Virus record (IMG/VR): IMGVR_UViG_3300017605_000140
Span: 46,390-110,389 of that record
Length of the DNA: 64,000 nt
Direction: 5' to 3' (one strand)
Source: a virus
Positions 2,780 through 48,837 of the stretch are shown piece after piece (position 1 is the stretch's first letter; each line of letters starts with the position of its first letter). The notes beneath the pieces are model-generated. The model was given only the letters and a program-made list of their open reading frames with translations, made no database searches and had not been told where the DNA came from. A program made the translations under genes and the position numbers.

Positions 2780-5173
2780 TTATAGTGCTCCAGTTGCTGA
2801 GTATTTTTGTATAAGACCAACTTTTCCAGCACCTGAAGTACCTGGTCCTGTTCCTGATGACAACGCTAAACGTGTGAGATTTCCATCACCAGTACGCGCA
2901 TACTTATAAACAGTTATATTAGTTTCAGCATCTACCACAATACGATCTCCATTAGACAAGCGTGTCCAAGAAGACAATAACGAGTCTACTCCAGCCGTAA
3001 CTTTACGTAAACTTGTTCTAGTAACATAATAGAAATTATTAGCGTTTATCCACGCAAAAACTACTCCATGAGTTTTATGCGCTGAGTCTGCATAATCAGT
3101 AGAAAAAGTCACGCATACACGGCCGTTAGGTACGTCTGGATCAATTAACGCATATACATAAGTGGTAGTTCCCGCTAGCGTCTGATTAACAGATGCCATG
3201 CCATAACTACTTCTCCACAGATTAGCTGTCCCAGGAGTAGCTACCCAATTGCCACTGATAATAGTTCCATCTGTCTGTGCATTAGCTAAACTAGACTCAG
3301 AGGTACCGTTAAGATTAGTATAGTCATTTACAAAGCGCGCAGTGAAACCTTCTGATCCAGCATTATATCCTGTGTAGTCTATAGCAGTATTATTTATCAA
3401 ATTCCCTAATTTATCGTAGAAATATACCAATGATTCCGCATTCGCGGCATTAACATTATTAGAAAGTCTTGACCAGAATCCTGAAGATACTACAGTTTTC
3501 TGTGCGGGTGATATAAAAGCCCAGGAAGAGTTTGAAGAATAAAAACCTGAAGGTGCCATATTCACATTATCAAGTACAGATACATACACTATCCCTAGGT
3601 ACTGGACTTGTTGTCCAGAAGAATACTGTTCAGCCGGATTCCAGTACGGTATCTGTGGAATAACTATACCGTCTTTAATAATATTTGGTCTGTCGGAAGT
3701 AGTGTAATAAAAGGGCTGCCAGAATGTTTGGTTACGCCCGGGAGTAATAGCGCCATAAGGTGTTCCTGGTCCTGATGGTTTTACTGCTCTGTAGTAGTAA
3801 CCATCTGTATATAAAACATTATTGTTGATAACGTAGTTTACTGCCGCAGAATAATTAGGAGTAACTATAGGAGCAGTTGAATCAAGATTCCATACCCCAG
3901 TTCCTATATTATTTGTCTGCGTTATACTTAGCGCATGCCAATTGTGCACAGAACTATCTGTAGGGTGAGGTAATCCAGATACTGTGCCACCAGCGGCAGC
4001 AGTAGTCCCAGATATTCCAGCGACACCCCAGGAAGATATTTGTGATGTTGCTGGATTTCTATAAGTAACCGAATTAAGCGCTCCTGAAATTAGGGTCCAC
4101 CAGGTATTACTGCTAGTTGTCCCAGATGGAGCCTGTGAAAGACCTGAAGTTTGCACATTAGCGCGATAGTCATAACCGTTATACTGCACTAAATCTGGTG
4201 GACCTATGCTGTTAAAGTAAGTAGAAAATTGACTCCACTGGTCAAGCACAGGATGAACAAAAGCAGTTTGATCAGCAGTATTGTACATATTAGAACTATA
4301 AGTAATCTCGGAATCCCAACCAGTTAACTCAGCTATAAGATTATGAATACTCTGAGATTGGCCTTTCATTCTATAGTTTACTGTTGCATTTTTTATTCTT
4401 TGACGACGTTGTTGAGGTGTTGACAGATAATTAGTAGCTATACCTAGTTGCTGACCCAGCATATCTAAATTAGCAGCAGATACAGTATCAGGGTTGTTAT
4501 TCTGTAAGTAGCTATCATAACTAGCTTTCGCTGTATCCAAGCCAAAACCGAATACTGACAGATAATGCTGAAGTGCTGGATTATCTATGGAGGCGCTATT
4601 AAAAGTATCCGACGTAGAGATCTTATAAGGTTGTGGTGTTCTGTCATACAGCATAAAGCCATAACCCTGATCTCCCAGGGCAAGAGTGGCAGTATTACCT
4701 GCCGGTAACCAGGTAGGGACATAATTAGTAGATGCCCAAAAGGATGATCCAGCAGTGGGAGTATGATTCAGATTAGAATTTTGAGTACTCGACCAGTACA
4801 TACCGTTATAAAGTACTTGGCTGTTAGCCAAATAAGCAGTACTTGAGTTCCAGTCAGGCGCCTCTAAGGTAATAAACATAGAGTAGTAATAGATAGTGCC
4901 AGGAATTAAATTGGTGTCTGCATAAGTGCGAGACATAGTGGATGGAGTAATTTCCTGTATTAAAATACCTTCTTCTGCCGTTGTAGGAAATCCGTACACA
5001 CTTCGTACAAGGTGCATTAATTTCCAGGCAGTGACATTAGGAGATGCCCACGTTAAAGATATTTCACTATAGTTACTTTGCGAAGCTACAAAAGGAGAGA
5101 CACTGTAATCTTCTTGCTGTGAGTATCCATAGGTATCTACACCATAAATATCTATTCCAAAACCCTTGCTCAT
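2780..5173 (-). CDS. Tail protein I-like baseplate protein fused to fibre domains
   Basis: A 797-residue protein. The N-terminus (about 20-110) is fibronectin type III-like. Residues about 195-320 match the phage P2 gpI / tail protein I pattern, including LDMLGQQLGIATNYLS and an R-Q-R-I-K segment. Several W-N-x-x-x-x-Y-x-x-G-x-x-V-x-Y motifs (for example near 125 and 550) look like small chitin-binding-type modules. This would link the baseplate wedge to receptor-binding fibres. The ribosome binding site is AGGAGA, and the gene sits just downstream of the wedge genes, as gpI does in P2-like phages. Confidence 0.8.
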   Translation of the reverse strand: MSKGFGIDIYGVDTYGYSQQEDYSVSPFVASQSNYSEISLTWASPNVTAWKLMHLVRSVYGFPTTAEEGILIQEITPSTMSRTYADTNLIPGTIYYYSMFITLEAPDWNSSTAYLANSQVLYNGMYWSSTQNSNLNHTPTAGSSFWASTNYVPTWLPAGNTATLALGDQGYGFMLYDRTPQPYKISTSDTFNSASIDNPALQHYLSVFGFGLDTAKASYDSYLQNNNPDTVSAANLDMLGQQLGIATNYLSTPQQRRQRIKNATVNYRMKGQSQSIHNLIAELTGWDSEITYSSNMYNTADQTAFVHPVLDQWSQFSTYFNSIGPPDLVQYNGYDYRANVQTSGLSQAPSGTTSSNTWWTLISGALNSVTYRNPATSQISSWGVAGISGTTAAAGGTVSGLPHPTDSSVHNWHALSITQTNNIGTGVWNLDSTAPIVTPNYSAAVNYVINNNVLYTDGYYYRAVKPSGPGTPYGAITPGRNQTFWQPFYYTTSDRPNIIKDGIVIPQIPYWNPAEQYSSGQQVQYLGIVYVSVLDNVNMAPSGFYSSNSSWAFISPAQKTVVSSGFWSRLSNNVNAANAESLVYFYDKLGNLINNTAIDYTGYNAGSEGFTARFVNDYTNLNGTSESSLANAQTDGTIISGNWVATPGTANLWRSSYGMASVNQTLAGTTTYVYALIDPDVPNGRVCVTFSTDYADSAHKTHGVVFAWINANNFYYVTRTSLRKVTAGVDSLLSSWTRLSNGDRIVVDAETNITVYKYARTGDGNLTRLALSSGTGPGTSGAGKVGLIQKYSATGAL

Positions 5174-39333: not shown

Positions 39334-39337
39334 AAGT

Positions 39338-39420
39338 GCGCAGAGAAGGACTTGAACCCCCAGACTCCGAAGAGGACGGCTTTACAGGCCGCAACGCTAC
39401 CAATTACGTGTTATCTACGC
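39338..39420 (-). tRNA. tRNA-Tyr (GTA)
   Basis: Class II cloverleaf of 83 nt with anticodon loop CTGTAAA and a long variable arm. T-loop is TTCAAGT; acceptor pairs GCGTAGA with TCTGCGC. No encoded CCA. It is the last gene before the array terminator. Confidence 0.85.
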
Positions 39421-39519
39421 ATTGACTCCGGAGACCACTCTCCGCCTCCACCCTTATCGGGAGTGCGCAAGCATCCGGTGCATTCCCGAAAGGTGGATTT
39501 TTCTATCCGGGACCTAAGG
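39421..39519. other. Spacer without recognised gene
   Basis: GC-rich spacer between tRNA-Tyr and tRNA-His. Short inverted repeats occur, but no D-arm/T-arm pair is present. Confidence 0.5.
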
Positions 39520-39590
39520 GTGAATGACGGGAATCGAACCCGCTAGTACTTGGACCACAACCAAGTGCCTGACCGTTTGGCTTCATCCAC
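39520..39590 (-). tRNA. tRNA-His (GTG)
   Basis: Anticodon loop TTGTGGT on a five-pair stem (CTTGG/CCAAG). T-arm GCGGG-TTCGATT-CCCGT. A G that could serve as the His -1 base lies at the 5' end. Confidence 0.88.
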
Positions 39591-39597
39591 CATGAAA

Positions 39598-39768
39598 CTA
39601 CTTCTTAGCGTAATATCCCCAGCAGTTATTGGAATGGCTTTCCTCAAATTCAGAGATTCTTTCGCCTAACTTACTTTTATCCTTTAGTTTATATGTTTTT
39701 CTGTAACCGCAGGTGCATATAAACTTAATCTTGTTATCCCATATATCGTACACATATTTAGCATCCAT
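39598..39768 (-). CDS. 56-residue zinc-finger-like protein inside the tRNA array
   Basis: ATG at 39766-39768 behind AAGGAG; stop TAG 39598-39600. The sequence starts MDAKYVYDIWDNKIKFICTC, continues GYRKTYKLKD and ends SHSNNCWGYYAKK. CxC plus a His-x-x-x-Cys give a possible metal site. It is a compact protein between tRNA-Ile and tRNA-His, function unknown. Confidence 0.75.
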   Translation of the reverse strand: MDAKYVYDIWDNKIKFICTCGYRKTYKLKDKSKLGERISEFEESHSNNCWGYYAKK

Positions 39769-39784
39769 TTTTAACTCCTTAAGT

Positions 39785-39857
39785 CCGCCCGCCGAGATTT
39801 GAACTCGAAATAACTCGTTATCAGCGAGTCGTGATTACCAGATTTCACTACAGGCGA
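39785..39857 (-). tRNA. tRNA-Ile (GAT)
   Basis: Anticodon arm ACTCG-CTGATAA-CGAGT. Acceptor TCGCCTG pairs with CGGGCGG using two G-T pairs. T-loop TTCAAAT. Confidence 0.85.
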
Positions 39858-39868
39858 TTATTGGATAG

Positions 39869-39962
39869 CTGAATAATATTAGAGGAGTCGAACCTCAAAC
39901 TCTATCCATAGTTCACCAGATAATAATCTGGTAGCTGATACCGTCAGCTTTAACATATTCAG
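39869..39962 (-). ncRNA. tRNA-like RNA with extended acceptor and irregular anticodon arm
   Basis: It has a D-arm (AGCT-GACGGTATC-AGCT), a T-arm (GAGG-TTCGACT-CCTC) and a variable region of class II length. However, the terminal helix is about 12 bp with one bulge (CTGAATA with TATTCAG, then TGTTA with TAATA). The central arm ACCAG/CTGGT closes an 8-nt loop ATTATTAT. No normal anticodon can be named. It could be a decayed tRNA, a tRNA mimic or a tRNA with an 8-nt loop. Confidence 0.6.
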
Positions 39963-39966
39963 TACG

Positions 39967-40040
39967 TACGCCAAGTGGGATTTGAACCCACAACCGCCAC
40001 CTTATAAGAGTGGAACTCTGACCGTTGAGTTATTGGCGCA
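39967..40040 (-). tRNA. tRNA-Ile (TAT)
   Basis: Anticodon arm CCACT-CTTATAA-GGTGG reads TAT for AUA codons, rarer than the CAT/lysidine solution in bacteria. T-arm GTGGG-TTCAAAT-CCCAC; acceptor TGCGCCA/TGGCGTA. Confidence 0.85.
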
Positions 40041-40044
40041 TAAA

Positions 40045-40156
40045 TAGAGAAATAATATTGTGTCGGGATATATGTCCAGCCATGTTACTGAATCCCCACG
40101 CTGGTTGTCTAATATACACAATCATACGCTGTCCTAGGAGCGTGCTGATTTCTCTA
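40045..40156 (-). ncRNA. Structured spacer RNA with two nested stems
   Basis: Perfect inverted repeats TAGAGAAAT/ATTTCTCTA (40045-40053 with 40148-40156) and ATTGTGT/ACACAAT (40057-40063 with 40116-40122) nest in one 112-nt fold between tRNA-Ile and tRNA-Ser. There is no coding frame and no tRNA arms. Confidence 0.5.
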
Positions 40157-40159
40157 AGC

Positions 40160-40246
40160 GGAAGCTAGGAGGGTCGAACTCCTACGGGCATTACCCCCAA
40201 CGCTTTTCAAGAGCGCGGCCGTCGCCGTCTTTCGGCTGGAGCTTCC
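40160..40246 (-). tRNA. tRNA-Ser (TGA)
   Basis: Class II, 87 nt. Anticodon arm GCGCT-CTTGAAA-AGCGT, long variable arm, T-arm AGGAG-TTCGACC-CTCCT, acceptor GGAAGCT/AGCTTCC. Confidence 0.9.
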
Positions 40247-40372
40247 ATAGCACTACGTTAGCGTTCTCCTGCGGCGTTCGTGCAACCGATCACTTCCTAG
40301 GCTGACAGGCTAACGTTTTTCCCTCACATTGCAAATCTGGTTGCACGTGGATGGAAGGCAGGCATGTGCTAT
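40247..40372 (-). ncRNA. Structured spacer with possible pseudoknot
   Basis: Two perfect 8-bp complementary pairs interleave: 40255-40262 with 40309-40316 (ACGTTAGC/GCTAACGT) and 40280-40287 with 40339-40346 (GTGCAACC/GGTTGCAC). This would make an H-type pseudoknot. An outer 7-bp pair (ATAGCAC 40247-40253, GTGCTAT 40366-40372) could close the fold. It lies between the two tRNA-Ser genes. Confidence 0.5.
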
Positions 40373-40383
40373 GCCTGTGCTGC

Positions 40384-40466
40384 GGAAGATGGAAGAATTG
40401 AACTTCCTCGGGCTTTAAACCCTTACCTCATTAGCAGTGAGGCTGCTAGCCATTCGCTTATCTTCC
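40384..40466 (-). tRNA. tRNA-Ser (GCT)
   Basis: Class II. Anticodon arm CCTCA-CTGCTAA-TGAGG, long variable arm, T-arm GGAAG-TTCAATT-CTTCC, acceptor GGAAGAT/ATCTTCC. Confidence 0.9.
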
Positions 40467-40471
40467 AAAGA

Positions 40472-40547
40472 GCACACTGGCGGAATCGAACCGCTAACCA
40501 ACTGCTTTGCAGGCAGTCTCCGAACCACACAGATTAGGTCAATGTGC
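40472..40547 (-). tRNA. tRNA-Cys (GCA)
   Basis: Anticodon arm ACTGC-CTGCAAA-GCAGT. T-arm GCGG-TTCGATT-CCGC. The D region is long and irregular. Confidence 0.82.
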
Positions 40548-40609
40548 AAGCGCCGGGCCTTTAACCGTTAGGCACGTAGGTACGGGGTATTTCCTACATC
40601 ACCGGCCGT

Positions 40610-40686
40610 GGATTTGTAGCGATTCGAACGCTAGTCCTGAGAAATTCCGCATGCGGTTTTAGTCTCAGTCGAAACCTTCCAAACCC
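40610..40686 (-). ncRNA. Minimal tmRNA-like RNA (tRNA-like domain only)
   Basis: A 77-nt RNA with an acceptor stem GGGTTTG/CAAATCC that carries the G3-U70 pair read by alanyl-tRNA synthetase. The D-like segment GAAGGTTTCGACT replaces a normal D-arm and matches the 5' signature of bacterial tmRNA (GGUUUCGAC). GGAC stands before the T-arm TAGCG-TTCGAAT-CGCTA, as in tmRNA. Discriminator A follows. In place of an anticodon arm, a 6-bp stem (CTGAGA/TCTCAG) closes a 20-nt loop with a tiny CCGC/GCGG hairpin. No tag reading frame, no stop codon and no room for the usual pseudoknots. A normal tRNA is excluded by the lack of a 7-nt anticodon loop. Confidence 0.8.
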
Positions 40687-40694
40687 ATTTAATT

Positions 40695-40775
40695 TTAGTA
40701 AGGTGGTCTTGGACCACTGGGCGGTTTAGGATTATTAGGCCCTGGAAAGGGCTTCGGTGTTTTTGGTGTTGTCAC
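40695..40775 (-). CDS. Possible proline-rich 26-residue peptide
   Basis: From GTG 40773-40775 the frame reads VTTPKTPKPFPGPNNPKPPS and ends with GPRPPY at TAA 40695-40697. The composition looks protein-like, but the start codon touches the 3' end of tRNA-Val and no clear ribosome binding site exists. It may be a gene remnant left behind the tRNA. Confidence 0.3.
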   Translation of the reverse strand: MTTPKTPKPFPGPNNPKPPSGPRPPY

Positions 40776-40777
40776 GT

Positions 40778-40848
40778 ACCCGCAGAGGGATTCGAACCCC
40801 CGACATTCGCCTTGTAAGGGCGGTGCTCTCCCGCTGAGCTATACGGGC
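40778..40848 (-). tRNA. tRNA-Val (TAC)
   Basis: Anticodon loop CTTACAA on CGCC/GGCG. D-arm AGCTCAGCGGGAGAGCA; T-loop TTCGAAT; acceptor GCCCGTA/TGCGGGT. Confidence 0.88.
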
Positions 40849-40870
40849 ATTGCCCCAAAGGGCTTTATAC

Positions 40871-41077
40871 TTACTTCTTACGGCCGAAGAAACCCTTCTT
40901 AGCCGGTTCTGGTGCTGGTGGAGTAGCAGGCTGAAGTTCACGACTACGATAAACTCCCACATCTCGCGGATCATCATTATCAGATACCGCAATACGGTCG
41001 GTAGATGTCTCTGTAGCTACTACAGTACCATCTTTACCCGTAACCGTCACTACTTGATCACCCTTACGCCATCCCAT
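40871..41077 (-). CDS. KOW-like small basic protein
   Basis: I take ATG 41075-41077 behind AAGGAGG as start, giving 68 residues. MGWRKGDQVVTVTGKDGTVV and TSTDRIAVSD form a KOW/SH3-like strand pattern. A Pro/Ala linker and basic end (AKKGFFGRKK) follow. Such modules bind RNA or ribosomal partners, interesting inside a tRNA array, but no function is proven. Confidence 0.7.
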   Translation of the reverse strand: MGWRKGDQVVTVTGKDGTVVATETSTDRIAVSDNDDPRDVGVYRSRELQPATPPAPEPAKKGFFGRKK

Positions 41078-41107
41078 AATATCCTCCTTAGTGATGTTAT
41101 ACAACGT

Positions 41108-41179
41108 ACTCCCGGAGGGAATCGAACCCCCAACCTAGTGGGTAGAAGCCACTTGCACTGTCCGTTGTGCTACGAGAGC
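41108..41179 (-). tRNA. tRNA-Arg (TCT)
   Basis: Anticodon arm AGTGG-CTTCTAC-CCACT; D-arm AGCACAACGGACAGTGCA; T-loop TTCGATT; acceptor GCTCTCG/CGGGAGT. Confidence 0.88.
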
Positions 41180-41302
41180 ATAATAGGATTTTGATCCGGA
41201 ATCCTAAAACCGACTAGCTTATATGTACGTGCTAGAACGCACTCTATGTTTACCGTGTTTATATAGGGACAACCCTCACATAGAAGAACCCTATGTCCCT
41301 GT
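41180..41302 (-). ncRNA. Structured spacer
   Basis: Several short hairpins follow one another here: AGGATT...GAATCCT, CTAGC...GCTAG and AGGGAC...GTCCCT. No gene is seen. It may be an RNA-processing spacer. Confidence 0.4.
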
Positions 41303-41374
41303 GCACCTAGAGAGACTCGAACTCCCAACTTTTTCGTCCGTAGCGAAACGCTCTGTCCATTGAGCTATAGGTGC
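41303..41374 (-). tRNA. tRNA-Arg (ACG)
   Basis: Anticodon arm TTTCG-CTACGGA-CGAAA; D-arm AGCTCAATGGACAGAGCG; acceptor GCACCTA/TAGGTGC. A34 would need deamination to inosine to read CGC. Confidence 0.9.
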
Positions 41375-41382
41375 ATATTTAC

Positions 41383-41922
41383 TTAGACTGTCTGCTGAAC
41401 CAACTTGCTTAACTTCCGCTTGTGTCTGAAGCTTATCAGATACTCTGCCAGGCGTCCAGGGGTTACTAGGTAGGGAGGATACTCTGTCAGAGGTGATCCT
41501 ACCTCGCTGTAGTCCAGTGCTACTAACTGTGAGCATATCAGATGATCAGAATCTTCTACGCGCTTTGCCACTCTAGGATATTTGATTCCTAAACGATATA
41601 GTGCTATCGCTAAATAATCAAGAAAACTATATGGGATACCTTCTTGAAGAATAGCTCTTGTTATGATGCTATTTCGTTGTATATGAGACAGATTAACTAT
41701 CCCTGTAGACCACAGTACAGGACGACCATCATACTTTGCAAGTTCGGATATGAGGGCACCACCCGGTTCAGCTTCAACTATTTTACCATTACCCACGTAA
41801 ATAAAGGCATGTTCATAGTTAGTGAATCCGTCACCATTAAGCCACTGACCAAAGCGTATTAGCTTACCTACGCCGCCTTCTATAGAAACTAAACCGAAGT
41901 CTCCAGGCTCAGGTAAAACCAT
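41383..41922 (-). CDS. YiiX/NlpC-P60-like permuted papain-fold hydrolase
   Basis: A 179-residue protein. The His-containing motif NYEHAFIYVGNGKIVEAEPG precedes the Cys motif DSDHLICSQLVALDY, the permuted order of the YiiX/LRAT-like NlpC/P60 branch. GIPYSFLDYLAIAL between them also fits. It could cleave cell-wall peptides or lipids, and thus be a second wall enzyme or lysis factor. It is isolated in the tRNA array. Confidence 0.75.
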   Translation of the reverse strand: MVLPEPGDFGLVSIEGGVGKLIRFGQWLNGDGFTNYEHAFIYVGNGKIVEAEPGGALISELAKYDGRPVLWSTGIVNLSHIQRNSIITRAILQEGIPYSFLDYLAIALYRLGIKYPRVAKRVEDSDHLICSQLVALDYSEVGSPLTEYPPYLVTPGRLAEYLISFRHKRKLSKLVQQTV

Positions 41923-41943
41923 AATACTCTCCTATTATTAAAG

Positions 41944-42017
41944 TGATCCGACTCGGACTCGAACCGAGGACTCTGAGTTTAAAAGACTCGCACTCTACCA
42001 ACTGAGTTACCGGATCA
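41944..42017 (-). tRNA. tRNA-Lys (TTT)
   Basis: Anticodon loop CTTTTAA on GAGT/ACTC. D-arm AACTCAGTTGGTAGAGTG; T-arm CTCGG-TTCGAGT-CCGAG; acceptor TGATCCG/CGGATCA. Confidence 0.9.
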
Positions 42018-42079
42018 TATACTGTCAGTGTTCTGAGGCTGACCTAATGCATTAAGGTAACTGACACAGCCTTCCGCGT

Positions 42080-42151
42080 GCTCCGTGTCCGACTTGAACG
42101 GACGACCTGCGCTTTAAGAGAGCGCTACTCTACCAACTGAGTTAACGGAGC
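42080..42151 (-). tRNA. tRNA-Lys (CTT)
   Basis: Anticodon arm GCGCT-CTCTTAA-AGCGC; D-arm AACTCAGTTGGTAGAGTA; T-arm GTCCG-TTCAAGT-CGGAC; acceptor GCTCCGT/ACGGAGC. Confidence 0.9.
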
Positions 42152-42287
42152 ATTAATAGATATGACCTGACCTACACCCGAGTTTCACGGTTAACAGGTA
42201 GTAATTGTAGCCTTTGCGCATCTAGGCTGCATAGCATATCTAAGTAGCACTTTCATCGCCTATAGCGAACCGGTATGCCAAACCCGT

Positions 42288-42359
42288 GGACCTAGGGGGA
42301 TTCGAACCCCCAACCTTCTGCGTGCAAAGCAGTTGCTCTTCCATTGGAGCTACAGGCCC
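42288..42359 (-). tRNA. tRNA-Ala (TGC)
   Basis: Anticodon loop TTTGCAC; D-arm AGCTCCAATGGAAGAGCA; T-arm GGGGG-TTCGAAT-CCCCC. Acceptor GGGCCTG/TAGGTCC includes the alanine G3-U70 pair. Confidence 0.9.
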
Positions 42360-42363
42360 ATAA

Positions 42364-42425
42364 ATCTGAAGGATTCCCCCAACTCCCCGAATTTCACGGA
42401 TCTTAGCCGACGTGCACCTTCAGAT
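42364..42425 (-). ncRNA. Hairpin RNA downstream of the Ro60 operon
   Basis: A perfect 9-bp stem, ATCTGAAGG 42364-42372 with CCTTCAGAT 42417-42425, closes a 44-nt interior. It lies between the zinc-ribbon gene and tRNA-Ala. No tRNA arms. Confidence 0.45.
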
Positions 42426-42488
42426 CTACAGCTTAGCAGATGTGGCGGTTTTTTCCTAGCAGGCGGTCCGCCAACCGCTGTTAATACT

Positions 42489-42725
42489 TTACCACGTGGT
42501 AGCGAATCTTGCAACTTCTTCTTCAGTCAGCTTACGTCCTACATGCCAACCTTCACAGAAGGCGCAAGGATAGCCTTCCATATCTCTGCTGTACTTTATA
42601 CTTAATTTATCTGCTGATTTTTCCGCTGTAGCTTCTGACTTGTAGTCTACCTTATTACCACAAGTCGCATCAATGCCATAGTGGAGTCCCGCAGCTATGT
42701 GCATTGATATAGCTTCGGGTTCCAT
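42489..42725 (-). CDS. Small zinc-ribbon-like protein coupled to Ro60
   Basis: I choose ATG 42723-42725, separated from the Ro60 stop by one base (TAATATG). The 78-residue product has one Cys in ATCGNKVDYKSEATA and PCAFCEGWHVGRKL near its end: a likely Cys/His metal site as seen in several small actinophage proteins. Direct coupling suggests a partner of the Ro60 protein, or at least equal expression. Confidence 0.75.
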   Translation of the reverse strand: MEPEAISMHIAAGLHYGIDATCGNKVDYKSEATAEKSADKLSIKYSRDMEGYPCAFCEGWHVGRKLTEEEVARFATTW

Positions 42726-42726
42726 A

Positions 42727-44307
42727 TTACCTGTTCTCCCAAGGCCAAGTCTGTGATTCCCCAGCTTCAATCAATGGTATCATCTGAAATCCCTTGTCAG
42801 TCAATCCTCCGAAGGTATGACGCTTCTTCGAACCAGACTCACTGTGCGCTGCTGCGTATCCCTCTAGGTTCCAAGTATACACAGGAACCCTGGCCGGAAC
42901 AACAGCTAGTGGATCACCACCGTAACCATTGTACTGCTCATCGGTGATAATGATAATACGATCATGACCATTGAAGCTACCCCGAACCGCCACATCGGTA
43001 TCAGTGCCTCCCATATCACGGAACTTATTCAGCATAGGCAGAATAGAGTCACCCTTACGGAATGAAACCTTCTCAAATGCGGGACCATTATAAGCAGAAC
43101 CGAACTGAACCAAATCCGCATTCTCAGCACGAAGTGCAAGTGCTGAACCGAAGATAGCAGCCTTATCAGCCATCGTCAACTCAGTGTCAGTACGGTGGTA
43201 GCTGAACATAGAACCCGAACGGTCAACCAGGATAAGCGTACGACCAGTAAGAGACGGAATATTACTGAGAGAAGCATTCAAAGCATCTTCCAATGCCGAC
43301 CCTATCTTCAAGCTACCCTTAGTGGCCTGATAAGCCGCAAGGAATCGGAAAGGAAACTGCTTACTCTTAACAACTTGCTCAGGATCAGCAAGCTTACTAA
43401 GCACCCCATTCAGTACCCTAACACTAACACCGGCATCCTGGAAGTTACGCAGATTGCGAAGTAGTGCCATGTATCCCATATTAGGAATAATAGCTTCCCA
43501 AGCCTGCTTATCCATAGGACCCTGGAGCCATCCTGCCATCGCCTCCCATGTCATTCCGGCTTCACCCAGAAGATTGTTACCCTCGTTGCGCAAAAGCAGT
43601 TCTCTGCGCAGTTCGGGACGGAAACTCACAAGGGTCTCACGATTGCGTATCATCTTAAGAATCTCAGGAAGAACCTCTACATTTCCGTAGCGACGATCCA
43701 GAGCATACTTGAAAAGCTGATTCTGCTTAGAGGATTCCGCAGAAGGGTGTGTCAACTGAATAACATCCGCAAAACGGTATCCCTTAGAATCTGTATCATA
43801 CTTCAGCAGACTGTACTCATTATAGAGCTTCTTTGCTCCATCAGCAACACCCTTCTTCAGGTACGCAGGGAAGTTCTTACCGTACTTAGCCTCGTAGTAA
43901 GCCAGCACCTCTCCAGGCTCATCAGCACGAGCCTGAGAAGCCGCTACGATGGCCCTAGGAGTCCCATTCATGGCCCCAGAGTCGTAGAGTGCCTTAGAAC
44001 CCTCAACAGCCGCTACGATGGCCGCAGAGCGCATGAAGGCATCATTGCGAAGCCAGCCAACAAAGCCCTGGAACCACTTAGGGTCCTGAACAGCCACGGA
44101 AGCACACAGGTTGGTGAAACGATCATCACGGTTCTTGGCAGACTCATAGAAAGTATCCTGACCGACAAAATTGGATACTGCCAGCAAGAACAACTCTGAC
44201 TTGGTATCCCTCCCAAAAGCTGCGCGACCATCATGATTTACAGTCATACCTGTAGTCTTAATAGGAGACTGCACCCCTGTACGAACCGCCCTATTGAACT
44301 TGCTCAT
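42727..44307 (-). CDS. Ro60/TROVE-domain RNA-binding protein
   Basis: A 526-residue Ro60 (Rsr) orthologue. Residues about 15-340 are the helical TROVE repeat ring (SNFVGQDTFYESAKNRDDRF, AIVAASQARADEPGEVLAYY). Residues about 355-510 are the von Willebrand A domain with an intact MIDAS motif DRSGS (about 361-365), a Thr in GGTDTD and ITDE. Ro60 rings bind Y RNAs outside and misfolded RNA through the hole; in Deinococcus, Y RNA tethers Ro60 to PNPase. Four candidate Y RNAs lie immediately upstream. The SD is AGGAGG. Confidence 0.92.
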   Translation of the reverse strand: MSKFNRAVRTGVQSPIKTTGMTVNHDGRAAFGRDTKSELFLLAVSNFVGQDTFYESAKNRDDRFTNLCASVAVQDPKWFQGFVGWLRNDAFMRSAAIVAAVEGSKALYDSGAMNGTPRAIVAASQARADEPGEVLAYYEAKYGKNFPAYLKKGVADGAKKLYNEYSLLKYDTDSKGYRFADVIQLTHPSAESSKQNQLFKYALDRRYGNVEVLPEILKMIRNRETLVSFRPELRRELLLRNEGNNLLGEAGMTWEAMAGWLQGPMDKQAWEAIIPNMGYMALLRNLRNFQDAGVSVRVLNGVLSKLADPEQVVKSKQFPFRFLAAYQATKGSLKIGSALEDALNASLSNIPSLTGRTLILVDRSGSMFSYHRTDTELTMADKAAIFGSALALRAENADLVQFGSAYNGPAFEKVSFRKGDSILPMLNKFRDMGGTDTDVAVRGSFNGHDRIIIITDEQYNGYGGDPLAVVPARVPVYTWNLEGYAAAHSESGSKKRHTFGGLTDKGFQMIPLIEAGESQTWPWENR

Positions 44308-44395
44308 CTTTCCTCCTATAATGTGGTACGTTATTTAGATAAAATAAAACCCCTCAAGTGCGCCAACGCGGACCAAGGGGAAGATTAGTAAGTTC

Positions 44396-44492
44396 CTAGA
44401 AATAACAATCTCTGGTGTATAGGCACCGTGCCCTAGATGGATTCGAACCATATTATTTCATTTCCAGTGAAGTAACCAGTGATTTTCGCATC
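44396..44492 (-). ncRNA. Candidate Y RNA a (T-arm, no D-arm)
   Basis: The closing helix is AATCACTGGT (44475-44484) with ACCAGAGATT (44407-44416), one mismatch. 5' GATGCG block, TACTTC right after the 5' strand, and 3' tail TTATTTCTAG are shared with the other copies. Inside are a T-arm ATGG-TTCGAAT-CCAT (44437-44451) and an acceptor-like hairpin (44420-44435), but no D-arm. It is adjacent to the Ro60 start. Confidence 0.7.
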
Positions 44493-44568
44493 GGAATTTA
44501 CTAAGATGAAAAATAGATGGGTCGCTCTGCTGAACACCTAGTAACCCATAGGGATGATAGGAATTTAC

Positions 44569-44597
44569 ATACTGCTGTCTCTCACTCTATTTGTCAA
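44569..44597 (-). promoter_or_regulatory. Possible promoter for Y RNA a and Ro60
   Basis: On the minus strand TTGACA (44592-44597) and CAGTAT (44569-44574) are 17 nt apart. The -10 box is weak. Downstream, a 6-bp pair ATGGGT/ACCCAT around 44515-44547 may be another divergent Y-like hairpin. Confidence 0.4.
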
Positions 44598-44609
44598 TAT
44601 TGCTATACC

Positions 44610-44674
44610 CTAGAAAAAGTCGCTCATGGTGTCTTTGATTACCATTAATGTGAAGTAACCATGAGCTGCGCATC
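44610..44674 (-). ncRNA. Candidate Y RNA b (short)
   Basis: Perfect 9-bp closing helix GCTCATGGT (44658-44666) with ACCATGAGC (44622-44630). It has the GATGCG block, TACTTC after the 5' strand and a TTTTTCTAG 3' tail. No tRNA-like module. Confidence 0.7.
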
Positions 44675-44703
44675 GGGTAAAACTTATTAAATTATATTAA
44701 CAG

Positions 44704-44832
44704 CTAGAAATAATCAACTACGGCATTTCTATACCGATGCTCTGCCATTGAGCTATTTACCGATGAGTCGGTAACAGAGGATTCGAACCTCTTGTCTTCG
44801 GTTCCGGTTGAAGTATCCGTAATTTTCGCAAC
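44704..44832 (-). ncRNA. Candidate Y RNA c with circularly permuted tRNA module
   Basis: The order on the RNA is: closing helix AATTACGG/CCGTAGTT (44817-44824, 44716-44723), TACTTC, anticodon-stem-like ACCGA, a 5-nt variable region, T-arm AGAGG-TTCGAAT-CCTCT, acceptor-like TTACCGA closed by loop CTCA with TCGGTAA, two bases, D-arm AGCTCAATGGCAGAGC, one base, TCGGT pairing ACCGA, then the 3' tail TTATTTCTAG. This is a tRNA opened at the anticodon loop and joined at the acceptor end, the YrlA design. Confidence 0.85.
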
Positions 44833-44840
44833 GCTGTCAA
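44812..44840 (-). promoter_or_regulatory. Promoter-like boxes overlapping Y RNA c 5' end
   Basis: TTGACA (44835-44840) and GATACT (44812-44817) with a 17-nt spacer. The -10 box would fall inside the proposed RNA helix, so either the promoter or the exact RNA 5' end is misplaced. Confidence 0.35.
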
Positions 44841-44847
44841 AACTGAA

Positions 44848-44936
44848 TGATAGAAGGGATAAGAACGTTCGTATCAAGATTACTGGGACGTTGTACTCGA
44901 TTACAGCCGCTAGCAGGCTACCCAAACCTTCTATCA
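44848..44936 (-). ncRNA. Structured RNA between Y RNA candidates
   Basis: A perfect 10-bp helix, TGATAGAAGG 44848-44857 with CCTTCTATCA 44927-44936, closes a 69-nt interior with at least one hairpin (AGCC...GGCT). It lacks the GATGCG and TACTTC blocks. It may be another Ro60 ligand or a spacer. Confidence 0.5.
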
Positions 44937-44948
44937 AGTTTACGGTGA

Positions 44949-45026
44949 CTAGAAATAATGATAAAAGTATTATAAACCCCATTTTCGGTGGAGTATTTTC
45001 ATTGAAGTATCTCTTATCTTCGCATC
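44949..45026 (-). ncRNA. Candidate Y RNA d (no tRNA module)
   Basis: Closing helix GATAAGAG (45011-45018) with CTTTTATC (44960-44967), GATGCG block, TACTTC and tail TTATTTCTAG as in the other copies. Inner pairs include CTCCA/TGGGG. Located 10 nt downstream of tRNA-Asn, so probably co-transcribed and processed. Confidence 0.7.
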
Positions 45027-45035
45027 GTCACAAGC

Positions 45036-45107
45036 TCGCCCACCTGGACTCGAACCAGGAACCGTCGCATTAACAGTGCGAAACTCTGCCAATTGAGTTA
45101 TAGGCGA
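45036..45107 (-). tRNA. tRNA-Asn (GTT)
   Basis: Anticodon arm TCGCA-CTGTTAA-TGCGA; D-arm AACTCAATTGGCAGAGTT; T-arm CCTGG-TTCGAGT-CCAGG; acceptor TCGCCTA/TGGGCGA. Confidence 0.9.
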
Positions 45108-45184
45108 ATACGGTCACTGTAGCTCTCGCGGTAATGACCTTGTGTACTACATATACTACCAGAGGTTGTTAGGCTCTGTCAAGC

Positions 45185-45254
45185 ACGCCCTGTAGGAATC
45201 GGACCCACGCTTAGAGGTTTGGAATCTCTCGCACTACCATTATACTAAGGGCAT
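45185..45254 (-). tRNA. tRNA-Trp (CCA)
   Basis: Anticodon loop TTCCAAA; acceptor ATGCCCT/AGGGCGT; T-arm GTGGG-TCCGATT-CCTAC with the unusual T-loop TCCGATT. Confidence 0.8.
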
Positions 45255-45268
45255 ATTATATTGGACGT

Positions 45269-45350
45269 ACTCCCTGTCGGACTCGAACCGACACGTCATA
45301 AGACACGAGATCCTAAATCTCGCGCGGCTACCAGATTACGCCAAGGGAGC
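45269..45350 (-). tRNA. tRNA-Leu (TAG)
   Basis: Class II. Anticodon arm CGAGA-TTTAGGA-TCTCG; T-arm GTCGG-TTCGAGT-CCGAC; acceptor GCTCCCT/AGGGAGT. Confidence 0.9.
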
Positions 45351-45369
45351 ATAATAACCTGTATTACGT

Positions 45370-45449
45370 ACCCACAGCCGGACTCGAACCGGCACGACCG
45401 AAGTCAACGGATTTTAAGTCCGTCGTGGCTGCCATTTCACCATGCGGGC
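45370..45449 (-). tRNA. tRNA-Leu (TAA)
   Basis: Class II. Anticodon arm ACGGA-CTTAAAA-TCCGT; T-arm GCCGG-TTCGAGT-CCGGC; acceptor GCCCGCA/TGTGGGT. Confidence 0.9.
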
Positions 45450-45517
45450 ATTGCTGACTAGCTACGATTAAGTTGTATACCTGGAGCTTATCACACGTTA
45501 CAACGCTAGTCAAACTA

Positions 45518-45603
45518 GATTCTAGTGAGGATCGAACTCACAAGCAGCCATCAGGATAAAGCGTACACCCTTACCCCACCTGTGTACAGGTTGCCACAGA
45601 ATC
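45518..45603 (-). ncRNA. Second irregular tRNA-like RNA
   Basis: A clear T-arm GTGAG-TTCGATC-CTCAC and acceptor GATTCTG/TAGAATC (extendable to about 10 bp by CTA/TAG) exist. The D region is a 5-bp stem with 4-nt loop (ACCTG-TACA-CAGGT) without a normal D-loop. The central arm (TAAGG-GTGTACG-CTTTA) gives an unconvincing GTA anticodon. Possibly a decayed tRNA or a mimic. Confidence 0.55.
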
Positions 45604-45609
45604 TAGAGT

Positions 45610-45681
45610 ACTCCAAGTCGGACTCGAACCGACAACTAGCGGTACTTGAAGCCGCTTCCTCTACCATTGGGATATTGGAGC
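45610..45681 (-). tRNA. tRNA with anticodon loop TTCAAGT (probably CAA, Leu)
   Basis: Acceptor GCTCCAA/TTGGAGT and T-arm GTCGG-TTCGAGT-CCGAC are normal. The anticodon stem GCGG/CCGC closes with one C-A mismatch. Reading loop TTCAAGT gives CAA, but the variable loop is short, unlike leucine tRNAs. A shifted reading would give TCA. Identity uncertain. Confidence 0.65.
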
Positions 45682-45788
45682 ATTCTCGGTATTAACCGCT
45701 ACCGATGGGCGTAACCGTCACCGTCAGGTGTCTACGGTATTTCCGTAGGAACATTAGCACTATCAAAATAGACATCATAAACTAGAGA

Positions 45789-45859
45789 GCCTCTCCCCGG
45801 ATTCGAACCGAGCACTTGGCTTTACAAGAGCCGCGCTTTTCCCACTAAGCTAGAGAGGC
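45789..45859 (-). tRNA. tRNA-Thr (TGT)
   Basis: Anticodon loop CTTGTAA on GGCT/AGCC; D-arm AGCTTAGTGGGAAAAGCG; acceptor GCCTCTC/GAGAGGC. Confidence 0.9.
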
Positions 45860-45979
45860 ATTACCACTATACAAATTATACTGACACCAGTGGCCCATTT
45901 CAGTAACCCTATCCGAAATTTCTAAGCTTAGGGGGTATATGTGGTGAATAGTTTAAAGACATCACACCTGTCGGTCTTT

Positions 45980-46011
45980 AGAGAATTGCGGAAGGAGGAA
46001 CACAATTCTCT
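45980..46011 (-). terminator. Hairpin after the 46018 gene
   Basis: A perfect 9-bp inverted repeat, AGAGAATTG 45980-45988 with CAATTCTCT 46003-46011, 6 nt beyond the stop codon. It separates this mRNA from the downstream tRNAs. Confidence 0.6.
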
Positions 46012-46017
46012 AGCTTA

Positions 46018-46317
46018 TTACGGCGCTGTTCCCGTAGCCTTAACGATAAAGTCGTTATTATCGTTAATTGTAAAATCAGTAGGAAGCGCAAATGGAGATG
46101 AATTGGTAAGCTGTACAAGGTACTGTCCGTCAGTAGCCCCAGCACCAGGAGTGTTGGCAGCTAAATTAAGAATAGAGCGTACTGTTGTTGGAAAAGTCGC
46201 CCCACTAGTTGTAGGTACTGGGAATACATAAGCATGCCCATCCTGCATAACTGCGGCACGTACTTGATCACCAACAGCTAAAGCGTCAGCCTTAACAATT
46301 GTATATGTGAATGCCAT
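46018..46317 (-). CDS. Unknown beta-rich small protein
   Basis: A 99-residue protein (MAFTYTIVKADALAVGDQVR, then GQYLVQLTNSSPFALP). It is all-beta in character and similar in style to small virion proteins. GAAAGG site. It is an isolated protein gene in the tRNA array. Function unknown. Confidence 0.65.
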   Translation of the reverse strand: MAFTYTIVKADALAVGDQVRAAVMQDGHAYVFPVPTTSGATFPTTVRSILNLAANTPGAGATDGQYLVQLTNSSPFALPTDFTINDNNDFIVKATGTAP

Positions 46318-46561
46318 ATTTGAACCTTTCTAGAAAGAATTACTTTATGCTATAGCAATTCCTAATTGTACCCTAGAAAGATTATTTAGTGGACTGGTGG
46401 TCTCATCCCTCTGCCTGCTTCCGTAATCGTCCAAATACGGAGTATCTTCCACCACGGAGGCCCTACCCGTAACCGCGCCTCTTCTTGCTTGCCAAGCCGT
46501 CGAATAGGTGGCGACTTGAAGCACTCCTACCCAGGATTGGGTATCCTATTACGTGCTACGT
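46318..46561. other. Spacer, no gene seen
   Basis: About 240 bases between the 46018 gene and tRNA-Glu. Short inverted repeats are present (for example GTATTTGGAC near 46430 and GGTATCC near 46548), but there is no tRNA, no long hairpin and no credible reading frame. Confidence 0.5.
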
Positions 46562-46632
46562 ACCCCCACGGAGAGTTGAACTCCGTCTTCAAGATTGAAA
46601 GTCTTGTGTACTAACCGATATACTATGGGGGC
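46562..46632 (-). tRNA. tRNA-Glu (TTC)
   Basis: Anticodon arm CAAGA-CTTTCAA-TCTTG; D-arm AGTATATCGGTTAGTACA; T-arm CGGAG-TTCAACT-CTCCG; acceptor GCCCCCA/TGGGGGT. Confidence 0.9.
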
Positions 46633-46639
46633 AAAAACT

Positions 46640-46690
46640 ACTGATACTTATATATGAAAAACGCGTCTATTCATATAGATCTGTATCAGT
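46640..46690 (-). terminator. Long hairpin followed by T-run
   Basis: ACTGATAC 46640-46647 pairs with GTATCAGT 46683-46690, with an inner ATATGA/TCATAT pair. On the minus strand TAGTTTTTG follows, so it could terminate the upstream part of the array. Confidence 0.5.
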
Positions 46691-46812
46691 AGTATATGAG
46701 AAAGACTCACGCATCCTCTCTCATTGGATCAGCATCAAATAGGAGGGGGATTTTCGTCTTCACCCTAGCCCTTTATCTCAGGCCACGAAATCCTATAAGG
46801 CGTGTTGCTGGT

Positions 46813-46882
46813 GCCGCTACAGGGACTTGAACCCTGTCTATAAGCGTGAGAAGCTTACGTACTACCTATATACGATAGCGGC
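46813..46882 (-). tRNA. tRNA-Glu (CTC)
   Basis: Anticodon arm TAAGC-TTCTCAC-GCTTA; acceptor GCCGCTA/TAGCGGC. The 3' end ACCA is encoded, unlike the other tRNAs here. Confidence 0.88.
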
Positions 46883-46887
46883 ATAAG

Positions 46888-46972
46888 AGTGTAGATTTCC
46901 CGCACGGCCATCTACACTATATCCGGTGCTCGCGGACCGGTTTCTACCTTGGCTCTACATAACCCGGCCAAG
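46888..46972 (-). ncRNA. Spacer with three consecutive hairpins
   Basis: AGTGTAGAT/ATCTACACT (46888-46918), CCGGT/ACCGG (46923-46940) and CTTGGC/GCCAAG (46948-46972) follow one another between tRNA-Asp and tRNA-Glu. They are probably processing or stability elements. Confidence 0.45.
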
Positions 46973-47022
46973 TGGGTGATTATATTCCCCGTGCAGGTTT
47001 ATAATCTTTAAGTTTTTAAAGC

Positions 47023-47094
47023 GCCCCTGACCGGATTTGAACCGGCGACCTACGGCGTGACAAGCCGTTGCTCTCACCACTGAGCTACAGGAGC
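47023..47094 (-). tRNA. tRNA-Asp (GTC)
   Basis: Anticodon arm ACGGC-TTGTCAC-GCCGT; D-arm AGCTCAGTGGTGAGAGCA; T-loop TTCAAAT; acceptor GCTCCTG/CAGGGGC. Confidence 0.9.
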
Positions 47095-47125
47095 ATTGCC
47101 CTTGCGGGCTATTAGTGTTACTGTA

Positions 47126-47428
47126 TCACAGAACTTCTGGCCAGACAAGCTCTGGGGTAATCTCTGTTGCCCGACCATTCTTTACTACAACTCTGGAAAT
47201 ATCTAGCGAAGATTCACCAATACGTTCTATGACTAAGTAACTACTGGGGTACAGTGTAGCAAGTGTTTTTAGGTCTGTCAACCAATCGTACCATTTAACC
47301 GCACCCATAGTAACACCATTATAACTATCCACATACCAGCCTTCGTAGACTCCGGAATTATCATTTAAAACATCGACAATTCCAGTAATATCAGTGTCTA
47401 TCACTGTAAAAGTTGAATAATAACCCAT
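47126..47428 (-). CDS. Unknown 100-residue protein
   Basis: MGYYSTFTVIDTDITGIVDV and GWYVDSYNGVTMGAVKWYDW give an alternating alpha/beta pattern seen in small phage proteins that begin MGYYS. A strong AGGAGG site. Isolated inside the tRNA array. Function unknown. Confidence 0.7.
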   Translation of the reverse strand: MGYYSTFTVIDTDITGIVDVLNDNSGVYEGWYVDSYNGVTMGAVKWYDWLTDLKTLATLYPSSYLVIERIGESSLDISRVVVKNGRATEITPELVWPEVL

Positions 47429-47456
47429 ATTTCTATCCTCCTATAGATATTAAAGC

Positions 47457-47528
47457 TCCGGGAGCAGGAATCGGACCTGCGGAATTCTGATCCAAAGTCA
47501 GAGTGGCCTACCAGCAGACCATCCCGGA
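47457..47528 (-). tRNA. tRNA-Gln (TTG)
   Basis: Anticodon arm TCTGA-CTTTGGA-TCAGA; T-loop TCCGATT; acceptor TCCGGGA/TCCCGGA. Confidence 0.9.
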
Positions 47529-47532
47529 AAGT

Positions 47533-47586
47533 GGGTATGCGCGTTTGGATTCGGATTGCAGCCCTACCAAATCTTCAGGCATACCC
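47533..47586 (-). ncRNA. Compact hairpin RNA between the two tRNA-Gln genes
   Basis: GGGTATGC 47533-47540 pairs with GCATACCC 47579-47586, followed inside by a TTTGG/CCAAA pair. The fold is 54 nt, with no anticodon or T-arm. Confidence 0.5.
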
Positions 47587-47643
47587 TATCACACAGCTTT
47601 ACTAGTATCCGTGCGCTTACTCTTTGCCCTACTTACGCCCTGC

Positions 47644-47713
47644 TCCCGATCAAGGTTACGATCCTCGGTCATCCGCTCCAGAGGCGGAGGTAATTCCATT
47701 ATACGAATCGGGA
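47644..47713 (-). tRNA. tRNA-Gln (CTG), unusual T-loop
   Basis: Anticodon arm TCCGC-CTCTGGA-GCGGA; acceptor TCCCGAT/ATCGGGA. The T-loop reads ATCGTAA rather than TTCGAAT, so the conserved T54 is missing. Possibly poorly folded or a decayed copy. Confidence 0.75.
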
Positions 47714-47818
47714 ATAAGCACAGTCCCGCCATTCTGGTCCTGTCCTAGATTTTGTCAGTCTAGGAGTTGCGGGTTCTGAGGTGACTAATCTCAGCGATTT
47801 CTTCTGCTGTGCACAGAC

Positions 47819-47842
47819 AGGAGATATCCTTGGATATCTCCT
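47819..47842 (-). terminator. Perfect 11-bp hairpin after tRNA-Gly
   Basis: AGGAGATATCC/GGATATCTCCT with a 2-base centre lies four bases beyond the tRNA-Gly 3' end. No T-run, so more likely a processing barrier. Confidence 0.5.
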
Positions 47843-47845
47843 TGA

Positions 47846-47915
47846 GCGATATGGGAGATTCGAACTCCCTCGAACAACTTGGAAGGATGTCATGCAGCCT
47901 ATACATCAATATCGC
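47846..47915 (-). tRNA. tRNA-Gly (TCC)
   Basis: Anticodon loop CTTCCAA on a stem with one T-T mismatch (ACATC/GTTGT). T-arm GGGAG-TTCGAAT-CTCCC; acceptor GCGATAT/ATATCGC. Confidence 0.82.
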
Positions 47916-48019
47916 ATTGGTGGAAAGTCGCGTAGCTGTCTTCAAACCCCTGACATTGCTACCACTTACCTCTCGCGGGGAACGAGCAAAGGTTCCTCAA
48001 TAAAGGCCGGAACATGTGC

Positions 48020-48403
48020 CTAATCTGGTAGTGGACGACCGCAGCCGCCACAAATATTATATGGATTTTTAGGGATGTTAGCCCAGGTATACGGATATCC
48101 CTTTAACGTAACTTTTGAAGGTTCACCATACCCTACATTGGTGTCTATGTCAACTATACGATTTTCACCATCTAATGGGTAGAGAGACAACGCATAACCC
48201 TTATCATTACCCGGATCTTCATCGAAGATATCCTCAAAGATAACATGCGCTAAATACTCAGCATCATTGTAATTACGCTTCGCTCTTTCGGTATCCATAG
48301 ACCTCTTTACTACGGATGGTAATTCTGTTCCATCCCAGTGACTGTATAGATAAATACCTGGATTGTCACCATGATGAATATAAACGTTCGCTCTGTCTCC
48401 CAT
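48020..48403 (-). CDS. Unknown protein with C-terminal CxxC
   Basis: I choose ATG 48401-48403 behind AAGGAGG, giving 127 residues. MGDRANVYIHHGDNPGIYLY and SHWDGTELPSVVKRSMD match a small protein family common in actinophages. It ends NICGGCGRPLPD. Function unknown. Confidence 0.75.
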   Translation of the reverse strand: MGDRANVYIHHGDNPGIYLYSHWDGTELPSVVKRSMDTERAKRNYNDAEYLAHVIFEDIFDEDPGNDKGYALSLYPLDGENRIVDIDTNVGYGEPSKVTLKGYPYTWANIPKNPYNICGGCGRPLPD

Positions 48404-48463
48404 AGTGCCTCCTTGTTGTTGAGGACTAAATAGTACCACGAAAGTTAAGGCTTGTAAAGTGGG

Positions 48464-48536
48464 GGCGCAGGTGGGAGTCAAACCCACTACTTTCCAGCTT
48501 ATGAGGCTGACGAGACATCGTTTCTCCATCCGCGCA
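48464..48536 (-). tRNA. tRNA with CAT anticodon (Met or Ile2), copy 1
   Basis: Anticodon arm TCAGC-CTCATAA-GCTGG. The first acceptor position is an unpaired T1-C72, somewhat like an initiator, but the three G-C pairs of an initiator anticodon stem are missing. The D-loop is irregular. Confidence 0.75.
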
Positions 48537-48537
48537 G

Positions 48538-48609
48538 TGGCTGTACAGAGGTTCGAACTCTGCCAAATACCTTATGAGAGTATTCCGGTCACCAGACCAT
48601 CTACAGCCA
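48538..48609 (-). tRNA. tRNA with CAT anticodon (Met or Ile2), copy 2
   Basis: Anticodon arm ATACT-CTCATAA-GGTAT; acceptor TGGCTGT/ACAGCCA; T-loop TTCGAAC. One of the two CAT tRNAs may be lysidine-modified to read AUA. Confidence 0.85.
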
Positions 48610-48619
48610 TTATAAATGT

Positions 48620-48689
48620 GCCGCCCCACAGACTCGAACTGTGATAATCTGGGCTTCAACCAGAGGCTCTACCTTTGAGCTAAAGCGGC
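48620..48689 (-). tRNA. tRNA-Phe (GAA)
   Basis: Anticodon arm TCTGG-TTGAAGC-CCAGA; D-arm AGCTCAAAGGTAGAGC; T-arm CACAG-TTCGAGT-CTGTG; acceptor GCCGCTT/GGGCGGC. Confidence 0.9.
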
Positions 48690-48764
48690 ATAATGAGTTA
48701 TTAAAATGTTGAGCACTAATATCTATTTATATTGTGAGTGTATACATTTGTGCTAACTCATGGT

Positions 48765-48837
48765 CGGGATGACACGATTCGAACGTGCGACTTTCCGGTC
48801 CCAAACCGGAAGCTCTACCAAGCTGAGCTACATCCCG
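48765..48837 (-). tRNA. tRNA-Pro (TGG)
   Basis: Anticodon arm TCCGG-TTTGGGA-CCGGA; D-arm AGCTCAGCTTGGTAGAGC; acceptor CGGGATG/CATCCCG. First gene of the array in the transcription direction. Confidence 0.92.

Follow-up and report, generated by a model that had tools for sequence, protein, structure and literature searches.

The question raised by this locus is what kind of RNA is encoded just upstream of a Ro60 gene in an actinophage, where a circularly permuted tRNA had been recognized inside a longer helix and read as a phage Y RNA of the bacterial YrlA type. All positions below refer to the window, i.e. the whole stretch of 64,000 nucleotides that was analyzed, taken from a virus record of 110,389 bases whose relatives are the Streptomyces phages BRock, GiJojo, pSt2308, and Alone3, and whose hosts are likely Streptomyces-like soil bacteria. 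The window contains 28 tRNA genes, all on the minus strand and spanning 39336-48837, and both the Y RNA array and the Ro60 ORF described below sit inside this cluster. Outside the BRock group, blastn returned only tRNA-Asn matches. In three of the other loci a manA RNA motif (RF01745), slightly under its gathering score, was seen amid tRNA-Lys genes (L001 6734-6897, L004 6761-6993, and L005 4467-4699).

The whole element, Y RNA c, also designated “Y2”, occupies 44699..44838 on the minus strand and extends six bases past each end of the span originally proposed (44704-44832). Within 44838-44699 all the parts listed in the original prediction were found in the order given there: an outer stem is followed by a Ro60-site stem and, innermost, by the permuted tRNA. 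The outer stem of 6 bp (GACAGC/GCTGTT), which the original span had missed, has its 5' strand GACAGC at 44833..44838, pairing with 44704-44699. The 5' strand of the putative Ro60-binding stem (44817..44832) consists of GTTGCGAA, represented by GATGCGNAG in the orthologues, and the 8-nt helix strand AATTACGG, and the enclosing 8-bp helix is formed by 44824-44817 with 44723-44716. Then comes the conserved ATACTTCA (44809..44816), whose TACTTC is present in the array elements, and the 3' half of an anticodon-like stem, ACCGA (44798..44802). A variable loop of 5 nt, AGACA, leads into the T-arm AGAGG-TTCGAAT-CCTCT with a canonical TTCGAAT T-loop (44776..44792), followed by the acceptor strands GTTACCGA and TCGGTAAA joined by CTCA (44756..44775), the dinucleotide UA, the D-arm GCTC-AATGGCA-GAGC with GG in its loop (44739..44753), a single A, and the 5' half of the anticodon-like stem, TCGGT (44733..44737), as aligned among the 12 orthologues. 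At its 3' end (44699..44723; all features on the minus strand) the element is closed by CCGTAGTT, the partner strand of the Ro60-site stem, followed by GATTATTTCTA and the outer stem, with the TTNCTA end that is common to the array elements. The suggestion that the CTC of the acceptor loop is the usual tRNA 3' trailer of these phages was unsupported (28 of 280 tRNAs).

For quantification of the pairing, the proposed structure was counted on an alignment of 12 orthologues, one of them from the window and the remaining eleven from other phages. In total 98.3% of the cells were paired and 21 of the 35 pairs had changed on both sides, with two-sided changes in 62 cells. Five pairing measures were computed, and none of them was reached by any of 500 shuffles; with the partners shifted by 1-3 columns, the pairing fell to 37-57%. 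Two-sided changes were found in 7/7 acceptor pairs, 6/8 pairs of the Ro60-site stem, 4/5 of the anticodon-like stem, 3/5 of the T-stem, and 1/6 of the outer stem, where 98.6% of the cells were paired and a single pair covaried (GC/AU); the Ro60-site stem and the T-stem were 100% paired. The D-stem is invariant and is the sole helix that does not contribute covariation. When no structure was supplied, RNAalifold recovered the same fold from the 12 orthologues. Loss of the module pairing was thus not seen in the related phages, which have retained it through numerous compensatory changes.

The tRNA character of the inner part was examined by reordering the modules as in a tRNA, with one fixed placeholder loop, and scoring the result with ARAGORN. 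All 12 un-permuted sequences were called as tRNAs, against none of the 12 in native order and none of 1200 block shuffles, while chimeras with halves exchanged between phages were called in 60 of 132 cases. The tertiary partners of a tRNA are also present, since U8-A14, T54-A58, and the D-loop GG each occur in 12/12 and the R15-Y48 pair in 11/12 orthologues, one of them with A-U replacing G-C. When the permuted order was cast as a strict descriptor, this matched the 64-kb window, its 28 tRNA genes included, at Y RNA c only, and gave 9 matches in total in 3310 dinucleotide shuffles; because it was drafted after the site had been seen, these counts serve as support and not as a blind test. The single-sequence energy fold is better than that of shuffled sequences (z -2.56), and in the minimum-energy structure both enclosing stems are retained along with the acceptor and the D-arm, but the T-arm strand is paired otherwise. 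We take the case for the proposed fold to be carried by the alignment and not by the energy.

The word “textbook” in the original prediction was nevertheless too strong for the window copy, which deviates more than most of the twelve. It has a G.A mismatch at the junction of acceptor and T-stem and an A15/A48 combination with no Levitt pair, both unique among the 12, and it carries GTTGCG in the Ro60-site stem where all other orthologues have GATGCG. As it lacks one acceptor pair along with GATGCG and the Levitt pair, the window copy may be weakened, or the deviations may be tolerated.

A search with the YrlA covariance model, as had been proposed, produced a full-length match (model positions 1-114, window 44823-44714) to Rfam YrlA (RF02553) of 29.3 bits (E 4e-4, 801 bases searched), which stays below the curated gathering score of 69 bits. 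Most of the orthologues likewise gave a match below the cut-off, those listed scoring 33-38 bits, and the corresponding scores were 31-47 bits in Gordonia, Arthrobacter, and other Streptomyces phages and 31-44 bits for Streptomyces-type chromosomal elements. All examined actinobacterial cases fall below it. Y RNA c is not a member of RF02553 by the cut-off and is a YrlA-class Y RNA by its anatomy; the curated Rfam cut-off misses the tested actinobacterial branch. With respect to anatomy, the acceptor, T-, and D-arms are permuted, a Ro60 ORF starts approximately 390 nt downstream, and the terminal stem of the RNA and its motif are conserved and covary, this stem being from position and precedent the putative Ro60-binding site. 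There is no readable anticodon loop, as a functional tRNA would have, and the anticodon-like stem is open. The full-length YrlA match, the kept pairing, and the adjacent Ro60 gene all support the original reading, and Y RNA c is almost certainly a YrlA-class Y RNA that is encoded by the phage and mimics a tRNA. Like YrlA of Salmonella Typhimurium (RF02553), from the tRNA-like class of Wolin and co-workers, it has the T-arm, acceptor, and D-arm in this order inside a terminal stem, adjoins a Ro60 gene, and matches the model in full length; unlike YrlA it is phage-borne, one of four Y RNAs, and below the Rfam gathering score. The YrlA operon further has rtcBA, whereas no RtcB was found in the phage record.

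The model R1 was built from the 12 orthologues, and its match to Y RNA c (44691-44847) of 148 bits was obtained with the window sequence included in the model. Further relatives were the Arthrobacter phage Atuin (130.8 bits), Quantum (72.4 bits), one IMG/VR locus (77.2 bits), and VanLee, Neville, Rabbitrun, JustBecause, and Frankenweenie, and all R1 relatives lie close to Ro60. Among the chromosomal Ro60 loci of Streptomyces and related bacteria, 48 of 50 had at least one R1 match within approximately 600 nt upstream of Ro60, frequently as two consecutive matches. These Streptomyces/Kitasatospora Y RNAs resemble the phage RNA in matching R1 (mostly 30-76 bits) and in lying shortly before a Ro60 gene, whose product is 50-54% identical to that of the phage, but the exact GATGCG..TACTTC motif is absent in 77 of 80 loci, and there are one or two matches in each locus compared to 3-5 elements in the phages. 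The pattern GATGCGNAG-N(5,14)-TACTTC was also tried on viral contigs and discarded as too unspecific, the matches listed being mostly single ones. Public “tRNA” calls overlap R1 matches beside Ro60 in GiJojo (tRNA-Arg), Alone3 and LuckySocke (tRNA-Ser), Frankenweenie (tRNA-Pro), and VanLee (tRNA-Arg), the overlapped annotations being located at L002 4555-4629, L004 4568-4641, L005 2274-2347, L011 2245-2335, and L007 2165-2236; such annotations next to a phage Ro60 gene probably represent Y RNA fragments. In phage JustBecause an RNA ligase gene (L010 1729-2481) is found immediately upstream of Ro60, near the Y RNA match.

The neighboring ORF (42727..44307, minus strand, 526 aa) is a Ro60 orthologue with TROVE and VWA domains. 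It matches Pfam TROVE with E 2e-18 and the TROVE protein 9l5y in the PDB with E 2.5e-26; the Pfam VWA_2 match is weak (E 3e-4) and below its cut-off. The ORF has a TROVE domain, a VWA domain with DxSxS, and the conserved histidine that are expected of a Ro60 protein, and H187 and DxSxS are invariant across 10 phage Ro60 proteins. In the human protein H187 has a role at the Y RNA contact (PMC4030889), and the phage position is presumably equivalent. The identity is 64-69% to the nearest named phages, 65-77% to the best IMG/VR loci, and 50-54% to Streptomyces chromosomes, and the arrangement with Ro60 beside the array is kept in the relatives.

Y RNA c is not alone. In this group of phages the interval between tRNA-Asn and Ro60 contains 3-5 elements, amounting to 55 elements in 13 loci, which have in common G(A/T)TG(C/T)G ... 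TAC(N)TTC ... TTNCTA along with an outer stem that matches. The array in the window has four elements, d, c, b, and a, all on the minus strand. Y RNA d (44945..45031; R1 51.8 bits, outer stem GTGAC/GTCAC) has the same stem motif with a plain stem-loop insert, and Y RNA b (44606..44679; R1 48.9 bits), with orthologues in 11 other loci, combines it with a short insert; no tRNA arms were seen in either. Y RNA a (44393..44496; R1 29.5 bits) has the stem motif with a T-arm and a short acceptor hairpin but no D-arm, according to the consensus fold of the reduced form. The second slot, occupied by c, holds a permuted tRNA in 12/12 loci. In the fifth slot, that of a, the permuted tRNA with D-arm is found in BRock, GiJojo, pSt2308, Alone3, L014, and L016, and it is reduced to the T-arm and the short acceptor hairpin in the window, L017, L018, L019, and L025; L015 has T-arm and acceptor, with the D-arm not clear. 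Across the arrays the inserts range from full permuted tRNAs through a minihelix of T-arm and acceptor to plain loops.

Between the Y RNAs and Ro60 there is a terminator-like hairpin, CCCCTT..GAGGGG with a T-rich tail (44341..44380, minus strand), which was not flagged by the short-loop scanner and has equivalents, differing partly in sequence, in the 12 loci read. A AACGTACCAC box is located at 44323-44332, approximately 15-25 nt upstream of the Ro60 start, and CGTAC(C/T)AC is found in 12/12 loci read between the last Y RNA and Ro60, where it is perhaps a regulatory site. The gap between d and c (44848-44936) could form a long hairpin of AACTTGATAGAAGG with CCTTCTATCATTCAGTT, and the spacer sequence differs in the relatives. 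In L017 a tRNA-like sequence inside a longer stem TTGGTAAGTCG/CGACTTACCAA lies at 4331-4440, between tRNA-Asn and the Y RNAs.

Before the function is considered, three other explanations of the site have to be weighed. Y RNA c is crossed by an open reading frame of 92 aa (44982-44704, minus strand), and the site might in principle be protein-coding. The ORF has no Pfam match, no conserved protein in the same frame was seen in the relatives, the stretch just upstream of c varies between the relatives read, and the base changes follow the helices, and we regard the ORF as spurious and a coding function as hardly conceivable. An accidental fold, arising where the 3' half of one tRNA gene lies beside the 5' half of another, gains some credit from closely packed tandem tRNAs that weakly match R1 (33.7 bits for L004 2932-2994 and 42 bits for L017 6825-6906). 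Y RNA c, however, reaches 148 bits and is enclosed by the Ro60-site stem, its orthologues covary in all variable helices, and it is the only match to the strict descriptor in the window, which makes chance or decay extremely improbable; tRNA-gene junctions consisting of 3' half, spacer, and 5' half (L004 2890-3039, L017 6790-6937) are on the other hand a possible route to the permuted module. In red algae, permuted tRNA genes are processed into tRNAs, and a gene of this kind yielding a real, charged tRNA would fit the 3' half preceding the 5' half, the short joining loop at the would-be tRNA ends, and the tRNA calls for the un-permuted modules. It would not fit the lack of an anticodon loop, the stem instead opening toward a long second helix by way of linkers that vary in length, nor the enclosing stem that is common to sister RNAs without tRNA arms, nor the adjoining Ro60, and bacteria are not known to have the splicing endonuclease used for permuted tRNA genes, so that this explanation is very improbable as well.

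More serious is the view in which the tRNA-like end acts not as a tether but as a decoy or competitor, occupying tRNA-acting enzymes such as the anticodon nucleases that cleave tRNAs of phage-infected cells, or modifying enzymes, while Ro60 merely stabilizes the RNA. The array lies within a phage cluster of 28 tRNAs, the module offers no anticodon loop that could be cleaved, and for Salmonella YrlA, which the anticodon nuclease does not cleave, Hughes et al. suggested a role of the tRNA-like domain as competitive inhibitor (PMC7790460). The precedent with biochemical support is nevertheless a tether to PNPase (PMC8394870), and the Ro60-site stem is kept with covariation, for which a free decoy would have no need; we consider the decoy unlikely.

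The reading that we prefer is that of a Y RNA working together with Ro60, and its identity and Ro60 partnership taken together, leaving PNPase aside, are very probably correct. We infer that Y RNA c is transcribed, and we predict with good confidence that it binds the phage Ro60. Bacterial Y RNAs are modular, the terminal stem holding Ro60 (Rsr) and the tRNA-like end binding PNPase, and their D and T loops are modified by DusA and TruB (PMC8394870, PMC7790460); U55 of the T-loop and one D-loop uridine are found in the sequence of Y RNA c. By analogy the terminal stem, GTTGCGAA...TTATTTCTAG with the 8-bp helix, would be the handle by which the phage Ro60, whose gene follows immediately downstream, holds the RNA. 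The far end folds as a permuted tRNA elbow with T-, D-, and acceptor arms natively arranged and opened at the anticodon stem. This elbow would be the effector-binding end, bringing a protein that handles tRNA or structured RNA to the Ro60 ring. By precedent the effector would be the host exoribonuclease PNPase, a partner that we propose tentatively, at somewhat less than even chances. No protein with an RNase PH domain was found in the phage record, which leaves the host as the source of any PNPase partner. The proposed tether between Ro60 and an exoribonuclease resembles the Deinococcus radiodurans Y RNA in RYPER, the Rsr-Y RNA-PNPase complex (PMC8394870, PMC7790460); in RYPER the tethered enzyme is PNPase, whereas for the phage Y RNA c this partner is a proposed one.

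The sister RNAs a, b, and d would probably dock on the same Ro60 and present other inserts. YrlB is a Y RNA without a tRNA-like domain, and b and d, as stems devoid of tRNA arms, are similar to it, whereas the phage set differs in having four tandem elements, one of them with a T-arm/acceptor minihelix only. In Salmonella, YrlB accompanies YrlA in the operon rsr-yrlBA-rtcBA (PMC7790460). It is possible, although we would not favor it at present, that these actinophages use a diversified set of adaptors, in which 3-5 Y RNAs with a constant Ro60 handle and differing inserts, among them two permuted tRNA mimics that evolve separately, couple one phage Ro60 to several different host proteins in the course of infection. 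No description of an array of up to five elements with graded inserts was found in a literature search that did not include the main bacterial Y RNA papers, and this absence is no proof of novelty. Phage Y RNAs were reportedly described already by Chen in 2014, and the Y RNA class itself is known. What the array adds is a graded series of full mimic, minihelix, and no mimic on one handle, which lets the purpose of the tRNA-like end be asked. Collectively, the covariation confirms that a tRNA-rich actinophage owns a Ro60 together with a tRNA-mimicking Y RNA, the same module as is found in its likely hosts.
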